Below are positions 28,634 through 51,835 of a DNA stretch of 64,000 nt, piece by piece; within the stretch, counting starts at the first letter, position 1; each line of letters starts with the position of its first letter. Origin of the DNA: Chlamydoabsidia padenii. Lineage: Eukaryota > Mucoromycota > Mucoromycetes > Mucorales > Cunninghamellaceae. The DNA lies in assembly GCA_025330725.1 (NCBI GenBank), contig JAIWND010000065.1, positions 1-64,000 on the forward strand, written 5' to 3'. The notes under the pieces are model-generated. The model made no database searches. It was not told where the DNA came from and saw nothing but the letters and a program-made list of their open reading frames with translations. The translations under genes were made by a program, and so were the position numbers.

Positions 28634-29441
28634 TTAAATGCCCGCTATTTTTCACTTCTTTTTCTCCTTAGCATCACACTTTATTTCCAGTGAGCTAAAT
28701 TCATTCTACTCTCCACTTATGTCATTTGGTGCCTTCAAATCAACCTGTAACAAGTCAACTGACGAGGTAATAATAAAGTGGATGATGTAATAATCATGTA
28801 TTAACCTTTTTTTTTTTTTGGCACATTAGTCGAACCGAAACAACAACTCGATACAAACTTGCCAAACTTTGGACGACTTCACATCTGATTGCATGGTGTA
28901 GAAGGTCAAGCATCAATACACAGTACCAAACGCGCGCGTCCGATTGCTGATCAGCCAGAAGAAGCCGAATCCTCTACATCTTCACACCAACTAAAACGTG
29001 TGCGTCTAATCGTGAACCGACCTGATCAGGTAAGGATATAATTGAAATAATACATTTCTCACAATGAACAATAATGAATAACGTACTTTGTATTTTAGAC
29101 TAATGACATCAAAGAAACAGACGAAGACGCGAATGAACAAGAACTTCAAGCAGAAAAGGTAGGAACACTCGTGAAATAAGAAGAATGATTGTAGCTAATA
29201 CTATATTTGAATTTGTAGTGGGCTGCAGTGGTCAACACGTATGAGGCCAAAATCAAACTTGGGCCGACAATTGTGTGTGGTTGTTGTGGGCGATTATGGT
29301 TTAATGAATCGACTTTCGTTATCAAGAAAGAAAAGCTCTATATTATTGGATTCACCGATGACGAAATCGATATGGTAAAAGCTTCAAAAAACAAAAATGA
29401 AAGATTACCAATAGGACTAATACTAATATGTTTTATCTATA

Positions 29442-29662
29442 GAGAAACATTTCTATTTCCCCTAAATTTAATAACAATACTTTTTTTACAATTTTATATA
29501 ATCTTTAAAATTTCTAATAAAACACTATTTTCTAAATTTTTTTGAATTTCATATGATCATCTGACTTTCAATATTCAAGAAATATCTTATAAAAGTTATA
29601 TCTCATTAATATTTATATATTTTACTATATCTAATATTATACCTCACCAAGAAATGTTTCTC
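29442..29662. repeat. 221-base terminal direct repeat, left
   Basis: Same length as, and apparently identical to, the block at 31456-31676. Ends are GAGAAACATTTCT and AGAAATGTTTCTC (inverted). No ORF. Confidence 0.85.
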
Positions 29663-29741
29663 AGGCTATATTTTTAAAGAAGAGAAAAAGTCATGACTTT
29701 GTATGATGAATGTGTAATATTGTATTTTTCCTATATAATTA

Positions 29742-31196
29742 TTATATAATAGTGTTCCAGTATTGTTCTATAATATCCTTACTATTAAAGTCTGTCTCTT
29801 TTACCCAAGAATTACTATTTTTATTATATCCTTTCCATTTTACATAATATTCTTTACTATTATCTATATTTATTTTATGTTCTATTATATATGATACTTC
29901 ATAACATTCATCATTTTTATTATCCAAATCAGTCATATGTAAGTCATCATTAATACAATTTGTATTATTATTCAAGTTATTATTTTCATATATAATTTTT
30001 GTAAATAATTCATTTTGATAATTTCTTATTTTTTGTATATTTGAAATCTTGTATGAAACAGTAGGTGCAGTAACATTTATTTTTGTATCAGGAAAATCAA
30101 AGTTATCTTCTGTCCATCTTTTGTGAAGATATGTAACATCAATATTGCCAATTTCAACAAATTTTTTTATATTTAACAGTAAGCATGCTAGCTTCAGTTG
30201 TAAATTATAAGTTTTGAATTTTGTAATTCTAACATTTTTATGAGGGTCAAATCTTTTAAATGTTTTAGATAATGTAGCAAAATACGTTTCAATTATAGAT
30301 CTATATCCCCCTAAATGTTTATTAAATAAATCTTCGTCTTGTGTTAATTCTATATTTTTTTGTTTTCTGACAGGATATATAAAATTATCTTCATTTATAT
30401 TGAAATCAATATTATTATATTTTTTAATTACTTCATTTAAAGTATTTGAATATAAACCGTCAAATGTTAAACAATCTCCATATTTAAAAAATTTATTAAG
30501 TTTTACATTATTCATAAACATTATATCATCATTATTATTTTTACACGGCAAACTTTCAGATATATATAATACCATTTCATTATTATCTATTACAATTTGA
30601 CTATTTAACCCTCTTTTCTTTAATTTCCAACTATATAAATCTTTTTTATTGAAATCTATATCTTCATAAGTAATTTTATTATGGTGACCATCCATAATCA
30701 TTGTTGATTGTTTTAATAATTCAGGATTTTTATAAAAACTTGTTAATAATCTTATATTTATATTTGAGAAATAATTTTCAAACATATTATCTATCCATTT
30801 ATTTAATTCAACTTCTTCTTTAATATACAATTTTTCATAAATACGATAAAATGTAGTATCGTTTACGAATAATTCCATTTCATGTGTAGAATAACCTTCT
30901 AATAATTGATATAATAAAAGCAATCCTTTTTCCACATTGTTATGAGGCCCTGTAAAATAATAGTTATTACAAAAGCTTGTTAAAAATATATAGGGGCCTA
31001 TGATACCCAATTTGTCAATAATTGTTTGCTTTATTTTATTTATATGAGGTATTTCTTGTAAAATAGTTCTGTGATATCTTTTATTCTTTATCTTAACATA
31101 TTGTTTTTCTAATATTTTCACCCAATATTTTTCATATATCTTTTTAAATTCTTTTTCTAAAATTTTCTCCACATCAATATTTTCAACATCTGACAT
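29742..31196 (-). CDS. DDE transposase (PIF/Harbinger, DDE_4-like) with C-terminal chromodomain
   Basis: Intact single-exon ORF of 484 residues starting MSDVENIDVEKILEKEF. Catalytic triad candidates are D169 (TMIMDGHHNKI), D246 (GDCLTFDGLYS) and E303 (YRSIIETYFATLSKTF), with spacing and flanks like the IS5-related DDE_4 endonucleases of PIF/Harbinger elements. The N-terminal 150 residues are helical and probably bind the ends. The last 53 residues (432-484) read as a chromodomain: YEVSYIIEHKI, then EYYVKWKGYNKNSNSW, with the aromatic residues that normally read methylated lysine. This would direct insertion or excision to heterochromatin. The ORF has no internal stop and lies between the 221-base repeats, so the element may be functional. 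Codon use is extremely AT-biased. Confidence 0.82.
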   Translation of the reverse strand: MSDVENIDVEKILEKEFKKIYEKYWVKILEKQYVKIKNKRYHRTILQEIPHINKIKQTIIDKLGIIGPYIFLTSFCNNYYFTGPHNNVEKGLLLLYQLLEGYSTHEMELFVNDTTFYRIYEKLYIKEEVELNKWIDNMFENYFSNINIRLLTSFYKNPELLKQSTMIMDGHHNKITYEDIDFNKKDLYSWKLKKRGLNSQIVIDNNEMVLYISESLPCKNNNDDIMFMNNVKLNKFFKYGDCLTFDGLYSNTLNEVIKKYNNIDFNINEDNFIYPVRKQKNIELTQDEDLFNKHLGGYRSIIETYFATLSKTFKRFDPHKNVRITKFKTYNLQLKLACLLLNIKKFVEIGNIDVTYLHKRWTEDNFDFPDTKINVTAPTVSYKISNIQKIRNYQNELFTKIIYENNNLNNNTNCINDDLHMTDLDNKNDECYEVSYIIEHKINIDNSKEYYVKWKGYNKNSNSWVKETDFNSKDIIEQYWNTII

Positions 31197-31455
31197 TTTT
31201 TTTATAATACATAAAGTACATAACCTTGAGATAAATTGTTTTATTTATATTATATATTCACTTTTGTCCAAAATTGTATGCATAATTTATTTTTTGTGTA
31301 ACCATTGAACAATAAAAATATAAATTCTCAACGATAAAAACGATGGAATTTATTATTTTTATAATCGGACTTTGAAAATATATAAATCGGGATTTTAAAT
31401 TATAATTTACAAAATTGTCTGCGACGCCCTTACCCTTTTCCTTTTTATTTGGCCT

Positions 31456-31676
31456 GAGAAACATTTCTATTTCCCCTAAATTTAATAACAATACTTTTTT
31501 TACAATTTTATATAATCTTTAAAATTTCTAATAAAACACTATTTTCTAAATTTTTTTGAATTTCATATGATCATCTGACTTTCAATATTCAAGAAATATC
31601 TTATAAAAGTTATATCTCATTAATATTTATATATTTTACTATATCTAATATTATACCTCACCAAGAAATGTTTCTC
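31456..31676. repeat. 221-base terminal direct repeat, right
   Basis: Partner of 29442-29662, same orientation. Short internal landmarks such as CCCCTAAATTTAATAACA and CATATGATCATCTGAC occur in both at the same offsets. Confidence 0.85.
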
Positions 31677-31680
31677 ATAT

Positions 31681-34250
31681 GTGTTTTTTGTTGATCCAGA
31701 ACGTGACTCTTACCCTCTGTACTCATCGTGCCATTCATACATCAAGAAAAAGAAAACCCGACCTCTTTGCCTCAGTAATGGTCTTGATTTCCCAGTGGTG
31801 CCTCCCGAAGTCACAACTCTTACACGGTTAGAAGAACGTCTTGTGGCTGGACGACATGTCTTCCAGACGGTGTGGTCTGTTTATGGTCCTCTTGGTCAAT
31901 ATCGTTCCAAAGTTGGTATTGTCATTGTACCTTCCCGAGCTGAAACTGTTGCGCGTATGATCCCTCGACCTTTAGATGACATCAATACTTACCATATGAA
32001 ATTGGAGCGAAGAATGGCTTATCAACGGTCATGCATTGAAGGAAATGTCCGCCCAGCTCTTGTACTCGACGCTGCACAGGTTTTGGTATCTACAGAACTC
32101 TATAAGCAACATGGAATTGGGCTTTCGCCTTCCACAAACCACGAAGCGACAAATCTAGGTGGTCAAGAAAATTTGGTTTCTGATGATGACTTTGATTTGG
32201 GTGGCATCAATTTGGATGATCTCTTCAGCTTGATCGACGATGGCGAAGAAGATACAGGTGCGGATGTGGATGGTGATGGCGATGGTGGGGAAGATGATTC
32301 AGTGAATCCAAGCAATCAAGAAACTTTGGTATCAGGTGATAAAGGCCTACGACTGGCGCCAGCAGAAGGGGATGTGCCTTTTTCAGTCAGCACCGACATT
32401 GACAGCGAATTCCTGGCATTCCCAGTACTTTTTGGTGGGCAAAAAATGTAGGGGGTCAACTATATATCTTACGCTGATTTCTATAAATCAACCATATGCG
32501 CTTTGATCGTCGTGTGGCGGGAAGACATGATTGTCTTTTATTCATGGATCGTAAACGCCAACTCTTAACACTACAACATTCTCGGCAAATAATCGCACGA
32601 CAACAAACAATTGGATCTGATCCTTTGATTGCTGCAAACTTCTTGTCTAGTAACTATGTGGAACAGCTTACATCAAAAAATCAAGCATTCTAGGTGATCG
32701 AAGGGCTCCGGTCATCGTCTTAATATTGGAAGAAGGAAAAGGGGAAATTGATGGCGAAAATTCGGCAATTTGGTGTCCCTACTCTTTTTGTCACACTCTC
32801 TGCGGCAGAAACTAAATGGCCTGAACTGTTGGTCATACTCAAGAAAAATGTGGATAACCAGGTCATAACTGGAGAAGAAGCCGATGCACTACCATATAAC
32901 GACAAAGCTTCTCTCATACAACAAGATCCAGTAACATGCGCCCGTTACTTTGACAAGCAAACCTCTCTATTGCGTAAAACTTGGAAGGATACACAAAGGC
33001 CATTTAAAAATTATCCGATCAAGTATTGGTATTACAAAGTGGAATTCCAGCATCGTGGCTCTCCTCATCTTCATATGATGCTTTGGCTAGATGATCCACC
33101 TACTCTCCCTGGTCAAACACCTCCTGTTAATGATGATCCTGATTCTAGTGATGTTTTTACTCATACTTCTGATGGTGTTGGTACCTCTGACCAAGTCACT
33201 GGTAATAACTCTGCTGATGCTCGTGGTGATGACGAAAACCTTCAACAAGCTACTGGCGATGGTTTAACTCAACCTTCTGGTAATGATGTTGTTAAACTTG
33301 ATCTTTGCGCTTTTATCGACAGTATGATCAGCTGTAAAGGTTTTGGTGCCAGCTCTATTCCAAACGAAATATTAGAACGACAGATACACCAACACACAAG
33401 AACATGCAAACGAAAAGGAAGACCTGATATCAAATGCCACTTGGGAATACCGTTTTTTTCCTATGGACAAAACACGCGTGCTAGTGCCCTTTCGTGAAGG
33501 TCGCTAACCACCTGCTGATACGAAACAAATTTTGGTCATGATTCGGGAACGACTAGAGACAACAGACTTTACCTTGGACAACAATATGCTCTTCGACAAA
33601 TTTGTGGACTCTTTGGGAATAATTACTGATCAATACTTCAATGTAATACGATTTGGTCTGAAGAAAGTAAAAGTCTTCTTGGAACGGCTTGTCTGTGATA
33701 TACATGTCAACAACTACAACCCAATGATACTGGCAACCCATCGTGCTAATATGGATATACGATTCATTCTTGATGCCTATGCTTGCTGTACTTACGTCGT
33801 CGATTACATCAACAAGACTGATCGTGGACTTGGTGTATTCCTGAATGGCCTCTACAAAGAAAGTCTGACAACAATCAAGGTGTAAAAGACGTCATCAAGG
33901 CAATAGCGTCAGGATTCTACCACCGAAGTGAAGTCTCTGTGCAAGAAGCGGCTTACAACTTGTTGAAAATCCCAATGTCGAATTCCTCAACCAAAACAAT
34001 CTTTATTCCTACGACATTTCAACAAAAGGAATCGTATGGTCAAGTCCAAAAAATACCTTCTGCGACTCGACGATCACTCGACGGATTGTTTTTTGAAGAA
34101 TATGGTCGACCACTACATCAAGAGACCGCTTGATCTGGAAAACAATTGCTTGGCATGAAACTACTCGTGCCAAGGACCCTTCTGCTGAAAACGAACCTGA
34201 TGATGGCTCTGGACTTATTGACTCAACTGTTTTTGAAAAAGAATAAACGA
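31681..34250 (+). pseudogene. Helitron Rep (HUH) region, several frame breaks
   Basis: Blocks in order: PLCLSNGLDFPVVPPEVTTL and RLEERLVAGRHVFQTVW (N-terminal region); RRVAGRHDCLLFMDRKRQLL; then the HUH nickase core FQHRGSPHLHMMLWL (33049-33093, HLH being the metal-binding pair); MDIRFILDAYACCTYVVDYI (33748-33807) with the candidate catalytic tyrosines; and VQEAAYNLLKIPMSNSS, the usual segment between Rep and helicase. Stops or frame changes occur near 32450, 32693, 33497, 33885 and 34133. Asp/Gly-rich low-complexity inserts follow the HUH motif. In the intact family this protein nicks and rolls out one strand; here it cannot be made as one piece. Confidence 0.72.
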
Positions 34251-51523: not shown

Positions 51524-51835
51524 AAACTAAGAATCATTCTTGGTAGGGATAATTAACATTTTGGATTTGAGATCTTGCTTAATACCATATGTAGTGAACC
51601 AGGTCATACCAAGAAGAAACAGATCCTTTTGGCCATTCTTTTTTATGCACATGTGCTCTGGACGGAGCTTTCCAGCCACACGTATGGGTACATTCACCGT
51701 GATAGGACATGGGTATCTACCTTTTAAGAGCCATATCTTACTCTATAATATCTTTATATATATGCTCCCGATGATATAATAGTCATCTATGATACCTCCT
51801 GAGGGGTGTAATTTTAGGAGCACCAGGTTCACCAC

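Follow-up and report, generated by a model that had tools for sequence, protein, structure and literature searches.

A chromodomain DDE_Tnp_4 transposon of Chlamydoabsidia padenii with LTR-like direct terminal blocks, most probably mobile as one composite unit

The analysed window, a 64-kb stretch of the genome of Chlamydoabsidia padenii (Mucorales, Cunninghamellaceae), contains a 2,235 bp composite unit at positions 29442-31676, in which a transposase gene lies between two long direct repeats. In particular, a left block (29442..29662, plus strand) and a right block (31456..31676, plus strand), each 221 bp long, are 100% identical, share the same orientation and lie 2,014 bp apart in a repeat comparison within the window; the 222nd matching base is an A that is common to both right flanks, and two identical copies of this length are not due to chance. 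Each block is MITE-like, starting with GAGAAACATTTCT and ending with AGAAATGTTTCTC, which together form a perfect 13-bp terminal inverted repeat (TIR), and the remainder of the block has no comparable symmetry. The outer left repeat (29442..29454, plus strand) includes the 12-bp near-palindrome AGAAAYRTTTCT, whose four occurrences in the window are the four block ends. ATA triplets flank the unit on both sides (29439..29441 and 31677..31679), forming a 3-bp target site duplication (TSD) at the outer edges only, and the inner junctions read CTC-AGG and CCT-GAG. All of this agrees with the sequence-only reading of the locus, which had described identical blocks of one orientation around an intact DDE open reading frame, inverted repeats as the block ends, and a target duplication restricted to the outer edges of the unit. 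By eye, the unit seems to lie inside a short GT...AG intron (29375-31699), directly upstream of a DUF6570 frame (31681-32451), which we take to be probably part of a Helitron-like protein.

Between the blocks lies an internal region (INT; 29663..31455, minus strand) of 1,793 bp, running from AGG to CCT, whose single-exon gene (29742..31196, minus strand) encodes a 484-aa transposase in a frame that is open from 31196 to 29742. Its Pfam matches are DDE_Tnp_4 (38.2 bits, cut-off 24.8), with the catalytic domain at aa 169-342 (30171..30692, minus strand), and Chromo (37.3 bits, cut-off 25.1), with a C-terminal chromodomain at aa 432-481 (29754..29903, minus strand) that was absent from the earlier reading. 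D169, D246 and E303, which are invariant across 23 aligned sequences, are predicted to be the catalytic residues. In a sequence search against solved structures, the chromodomain resembles HP1 chromodomains, its nearest relatives there being of the HP1 type, and it may have a targeting role; the catalytic part found no match among solved structures. A match to the IS5 family (14.6 bits) is far below the NCBIfam cut-off of 140. Besides the transposase, no frame of at least 70 aa lies wholly within the INT, giving no second gene in this family at that threshold; a 77-aa frame (31258-31491) straddles the INT and the right block, and no frame of at least 50 aa lies wholly within a block.

The unit recurs elsewhere in the genome. 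The 34.2-Mb assembly contains at least 10 block copies, arranged as three full units and four solo blocks at seven different sites (family 1), and all seven carry perfect 3-bp duplications within flanks that are all different. The full units are those in the window (TSD ATA), at C76:42115-44349 (CAA) and at C76:15517-17751 (TTT), and the solo blocks are in C23 (TTA), at C13:428524 (ACA), in C86 (TCT) and at C13:650870 (AAT). Three copies of the INT were found, each between two blocks, and no INT without blocks was found among them. The AGG and CCT inner junctions are present in 3/3 full units (for C76:15517, this follows from its being identical to the other C76 unit), so that the blocks of a full unit show no target duplications of their own. 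Moreover, two of these insertions have paralogous empty sites: the unit at C76:15517-17751 sits within another DDE_Tnp_4 element, whose uninterrupted copy at C47:82424-82682 has a single TTT and differs by one base of a nearby T run, and the solo block at C13:650870 lies within a repeated sequence whose copy at C44:81910-82093, the one aligned of 17 places that span the empty junction, has a single AAT. The block-gene-block unit is thus a mobile composite, as had been proposed, and neither result named beforehand as a refutation, separate duplications for each block or a direct repeat created by assembly, came about. These empty sites are paralogues of the target, not alternative alleles, and they were aligned at 5 of the 12 insertion sites besides the window's (C76:15517, C13:650870, C83, C52 and C41); for the window insertion itself there is no empty site, each half of the joined flanks matching only itself in the genome.

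The blocks had been described as MITE-like modules, and solo blocks with 3-bp duplications do exist; their own mobility is not implied, since solo blocks can arise from MITE movement or from recombination between the blocks of a unit. No excision footprint or single-block unit was seen, and no tandem multimer occurs among the three full units of family 1 and the two of a related family 2. The composite units of the genome are clustered on a few short contigs, where C52 has three complete units and a fragment, C76 has three complete units, and C83 has one and a fragment; this clustering possibly marks a transposon-rich compartment, which would fit targeting by the chromodomain.

The inner ends of the blocks, together with the first and last bases of the INT, create a second complementary pair: the left inner end and the four first INT bases (AGAAATGTTTCTC+AGGC; 29650..29666, plus strand) are complementary to the four last INT bases and the right inner end (GCCT+GAGAAACATTTCT; 31452..31468, plus strand). 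The inner triplets are reverse-complementary in families 1 (AGG/CCT) and 2 (TGT/ACA), with a chance of about 0.03 each by base composition for a pattern that was seen post hoc, and just two of three bases agree in families 3a and 3b. The INT was considered as a transposon with TIRs of its own; its complementary end bases number 4 in family 1, 3 in family 2 and 2 in 3a and 3b, and the candidate was rejected on account of these few shared bases and the absence of any block-free INT copy.

A search of the genome with the window transposase identified eight further long frames with 34-38% identity, as well as two broken frames; the nine transposases compared are all open and all keep D, D and E. 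Two of them belong to family 2 (C52 and C83), whose transposase is about 38% identical to the window's and whose units have identical 235-bp direct-repeat blocks with ends GAGGACCGGTC...GACCGATCCTC, unrelated to the 221-bp block. The TSD is TAA in the C52 unit and CTT in the C83 unit, whose empty site (C53:608-871) shows a single mismatch over 117 bp, and none of the four block matches in the genome is a solo block. Both units contain a second intact frame of 302 aa (L021:455-1363, minus strand, in C52; L022:458-1366, minus strand, in C83), of which the genome search found no further copy. Residues 123-230 of this frame have a sub-threshold match to a geminivirus Rep protein of the HUH type (20.0 bits against a cut-off of 24, E = 7e-4), the motifs FLTID, HLHLYIEW and YMLK can be recognised by eye, and a PDB search returned eight non-significant matches (E = 0.12-0.7), the best being aconitase and five being Rep proteins. 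A Rep-like nuclease on a DDE transposon would be unusual. A candidate HUH origin motif, TANTATTAC, is present beyond the blocks of the family-2 unit, and each block has one copy of a looser version; it was dropped because the DNA is AT-rich and, by a rough estimate, the count is about as expected.

Family 3 has a different kind of end. Its complete units (two in C52 and one each in C41, C35 and C76), with transposases 34-36% identical to the window's, contain no direct repeats; each end is instead a hairpin of about 284-293 bp with arms that are 94-100% complementary, starting with GGAGG and ending with CCTCC, and the two hairpins of one unit differ in sequence. Matching triplets flank 4/5 complete units (ATT, TTA, TAA for C35, and TAT), the C76 unit (L020) having non-matching flanks (ATT/TTT). 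Further, the units at C52:82752-85968 (TSD ATT) and C41:152095-155315 (TSD TTA) both have empty sites (C64 and C53), with no difference across the 117 bp compared. Family-3 units of 3.2 kb were therefore inserted whole, as one piece: their two ends are different sequences, and insertion with a TSD and an empty site needs the outermost ends of the entire unit. These insertions provide the best evidence that composites of this kind move in one piece. Overall, TSDs match in 13/14 complete insertions across the three families, with C61 (L017, contig end), the C43 hairpin and the fragments in C52 (L023) and C83 (L024, contig end) left out of the count; TNA accounts for 4/13 matching TSDs (TTA, TAA, TTA, TAA) and ANT for 2/13 (AAT, ATT).

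Several side features of family 3 were recorded. By eye, the two flanks of L018 (C35), and likewise those of L019 (C52), appear to come from different mobile elements even though their triplets match, and those of L041 (C43) look like oppositely oriented pieces of one gypsy-type reverse transcriptase; such flanks suggest that hairpin-capped units promote rearrangements. The C43 hairpin was examined as a solo family-3 module, being 97.6% like the L015 hairpin with no transposase in the 3.8 kb read, and was rejected because its flanking triplets are unmatched and its flanks look like two opposed reverse transcriptase pieces. By eye, L018:20-306 and L020:21-305 differ in the orientation of one terminal-hairpin loop, which in L020 is turned round relative to the element, an outcome that recombination between hairpin arms would produce. 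A second frame (L018:419-1216, plus strand; L015:3168-3935, minus strand, compared by eye) contains a zinc-knuckle-like CxGTTxxGxxCSR...CFQH motif, and in L018 it matches DUF5763 with 27.9 bits, barely above the cut-off of 26.3. Within the window itself, positions 51707-51800 are what is left of a hairpin arm of family 3, with 92% identity to that of C35.

The genome has 52 DDE_Tnp_4 matches, the composite units included, and four other DDE_Tnp_4 elements were read as controls, none of which has blocks. Three of these have plain TIRs (66 bp in C47 and C12, two copies of one element, and 27 bp in C57), and the fourth, in C10, has no clear terminal repeat within 3.6 kb; the flanks are ACA at C47 and TAC at C57, each duplicated, and an unmatched AAT/CGA at C12. 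This small sample suggests a layout typical of the chromodomain lineage rather than of the DDE_Tnp_4 elements of this genome generally. Related proteins are present in other fungi: at least 39 proteins match the window transposase among 8,000 scored candidates, and 191 match the family-3 transposase, the best 120 of the 191 being listed, and the named matches come from Apophysomyces, Rhizomucor, Mortierella, Linnemannia, Entomortierella, Dissophora and their kin. A scan of IMG/VR gave 34 pattern matches and confirmed no relative. In a tree of 48 chosen proteins (5 from this genome and 43 relatives; midpoint root only), families 1, 2 and 3 are three well-supported clades, so that no close sister relationship links the two direct-repeat families.

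The two blocks of a unit evolve together, as the repeats of an LTR element do. The window and C76 units of family 1 differ at block positions 84, 165 and 201, each time in both blocks, and at 2/1,793 INT positions, the two C76 units being identical to one another in both blocks and the INT; the family-2 units differ at block positions 82 and 144, again in both blocks, and have seven INT differences (six substitutions and one gap). Thus, across two families, 5/5 variable block sites have changed in both blocks, and the left block equals the right block in 5/5 direct-repeat units. Moreover, two solo blocks have an intermediate haplotype (84T, 165C) that is present in no full unit. The blocks vary more than the INT (pooled, 5/456 versus 9/4451; Fisher p = 0.007, from small numbers and sites that are not fully independent; p = 0.011 for family 1 and p = 0.16 for family 2). 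It is very unlikely that independent mutation caused the shared variants; they could stem from gene conversion, from unequal exchange or from units being rebuilt via single-block forms, and consensus polishing of short repeats during assembly could partly lie behind the identity of the blocks.

Overall, the window unit is most probably an autonomous composite DNA transposon of the form block-INT-block, moved by its own transposase as a whole 2.2-kb unit through cut-and-paste. The encoded chromodomain DDE_Tnp_4 transposase would bind the block ends through their near-palindromic motif, and joint use of the outermost left and right ends would move the entire unit with a 3-bp target duplication. 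As each block has a complete left and right end, it is potentially a MITE too. The direct blocks would recombine like LTRs, leaving solo blocks and keeping the two blocks of a unit identical, and block recombination could in principle also rebuild full units from solos. The sequence-only reading had derived movement in one piece from the missing inner duplications; the whole-unit insertion of family 3 upholds the idea, but the missing duplications do not compel it, because a solo block that gained an INT by recombination would look alike. Where the blocks are direct repeats, both routes would leave the same TSD and the same empty site, which do not distinguish between them.

The main competitor follows from that second route: only the 221-bp block would transpose, as a MITE, and full units would arise later by recombination of a block-INT circle, or of a donor unit, into a solo, a route of this sort being one of the options discussed for the KolobokP elements of animals (PMC9587614). 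It predicts what is observed in the TSDs, the empty sites and the unchanging inner junctions; the greater divergence of blocks than of INT looks like the outcome of exchange between blocks and a divergent pool of solos, and two solos have a haplotype that is absent from full units. It fails, however, for family 3, where two different terminal hairpins nevertheless come with a TSD and an empty site, and a single crossover between haplotypes would give complementary mosaics, whereas the blocks are identical in all five units (a small number); we consider it unlikely. An accidental origin, in which two unrelated MITE copies landed around a DDE gene and the trio then spread a few times, has a parallel in bacterial composite transposons, which arise by two elements landing around a segment, and the AGG and CCT junctions could be remnants of the duplications of two such landings. 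But the same layout is repeated around related transposases with unrelated blocks in family 2 and with hairpins in family 3, both blocks are present at 3/3 INT copies, and the inner triplets of families 1 and 2 are reverse-complementary (by the post hoc estimate given above), all of which makes such an accident very improbable.

Even less credence is given to a retroelement reading, in which a non-autonomous LTR or TRIM element took up a transposase gene and the blocks are true LTRs. Direct repeats, solos and matching block variants do look LTR-like, but the blocks run GAG...CTC with 13-bp inverted repeats and not TG..CA, no other frame of 70 aa or more lies wholly within the INT, the duplications are of 3 bp, and the hairpin-capped relatives have no direct repeats. 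Lastly, letter-identical blocks are what an assembly artefact that duplicated a 221-bp end would leave behind, a danger that the earlier reading had itself raised. Such an artefact is very unlikely: three units occupy three sites and two family-2 units another two, solos and unit-specific block variants exist, and, among the seven family-1 sites, paralogous empty sites are known for one full unit and for one solo.

An LTR-like layout of cut-and-paste transposons, whose one close precedent among the matches listed lies in an animal superfamily, is thereby extended to fungi and to a transposase of another superfamily; a single genome contains two direct-repeat families with unrelated blocks, as well as a sister family capped by hairpins. 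Comparing the three families could test what maintains such ends, given that each block could jump or recombine away, and the window unit, with 2.2 kb and one single-exon gene, is a compact system for testing how a transposase chooses between outer and inner ends. Further, because the DNA transposase is fused to a chromodomain, cut-and-paste insertion guided by chromatin becomes a testable idea. More tentatively, it is possible, if somewhat doubtful, that this Mucoromycota chromodomain DDE_Tnp_4 lineage has exchangeable, self-contained terminal cassettes (blocks or hairpins) that are replaced and homogenised via solo or circular forms, that the LTR-like architecture evolved independently at least twice (here and in KolobokP), and that the HUH-Rep-like accessory nuclease of family 2 may drive block recombination in a KolobokP-like way.

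Kojima and Bao (2022, Mob DNA 13:24, PMC9587614) studied KolobokP elements, which they describe as LTDR-INT-LTDR units whose LTDRs have their own TIRs and also occur as solos, and which the authors liken to composite transposons and LTR elements. The window unit is similar in that an INT with a DDD/E transposase lies between long direct repeats with short TIRs, 13 bp long against 11-18 bp in KolobokP, and in that solo repeats have short TSDs (four solos here). The differences are equally clear. KolobokP belongs to the Kolobok superfamily and to animals, and the unit here has DDE_Tnp_4 and a chromodomain in a fungus; autonomous units of the oyster families are 4.0-4.7 kb with repeats of about 450 or 660 bp, against 2.2-3.4 kb and 221-293 bp here; a His-Me finger nuclease is described there, whereas family 1 has no second nuclease and family 2 has a different, HUH-Rep-like frame; and the multimers and single-repeat copies reported for KolobokP were not found here. 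No C/DxxH was seen between D246 and E303 in families 1, 2 or 3, by eye in an alignment of the nine transposases of this genome. The window element is not a KolobokP, being set apart by its domains, the missing C/DxxH signature and the lack of a His-Me nuclease. Among the matches listed from the open-access literature, KolobokP is the sole close precedent, with no chromodomain Harbinger with terminal blocks and none from fungi; the earlier reading knew of no standard fungal element with this architecture, and the architecture itself was already in print from animals.

Other known systems share single features with these units. LTR retrotransposon features (reverse transcriptase or gag, TG..CA repeats) are absent from the window unit. 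Foldback-type elements resemble family 3 in ending in long hairpins, but the family-3 ends are complete hairpins with their own loops, and the two ends are unlike in sequence. Coe1 of sugar beet, as described in PMC2426827, also has a DNA transposase gene between putative LTRs, but its transposase is of the Tnp2 (En/Spm) type, it has retroelement genes, and its proposed ends lie outside the LTRs. In bacterial composite transposons, two short mobile-looking units likewise cap a centre and the outermost ends are used (see also PMC9587614); the transposase there lies in a flanking unit, whereas here the sole transposase frame is central and none is in the blocks.

By domain, the closest affinity is with PIF/Harbinger, as had been suggested for the enzyme, a group with IS5-type relatives in bacteria: a DDE_Tnp_4 domain with D, D and E scores above the Pfam cut-off, and the target duplication is 3 bp. 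PIF/Harbinger elements usually have plain TIRs without terminal modules and a second, DNA-binding gene that is Myb-like. Here, by comparison, terminal blocks take the place of plain TIRs, a C-terminal chromodomain is present, the second gene is absent from family 1, and other second frames occur in families 2 and 3. The target preference of PIF/Harbinger is classically TNA, and ANT in the Pangu subgroup, according to PMC12477816; the units here show no clear TNA preference (4/13). The earlier assignment thus holds at the level of the domain, without the TNA choice or the second gene, and a composite, chromodomain, Harbinger-like transposon is the nearest label for the window unit, assigned by domain and TSD length.
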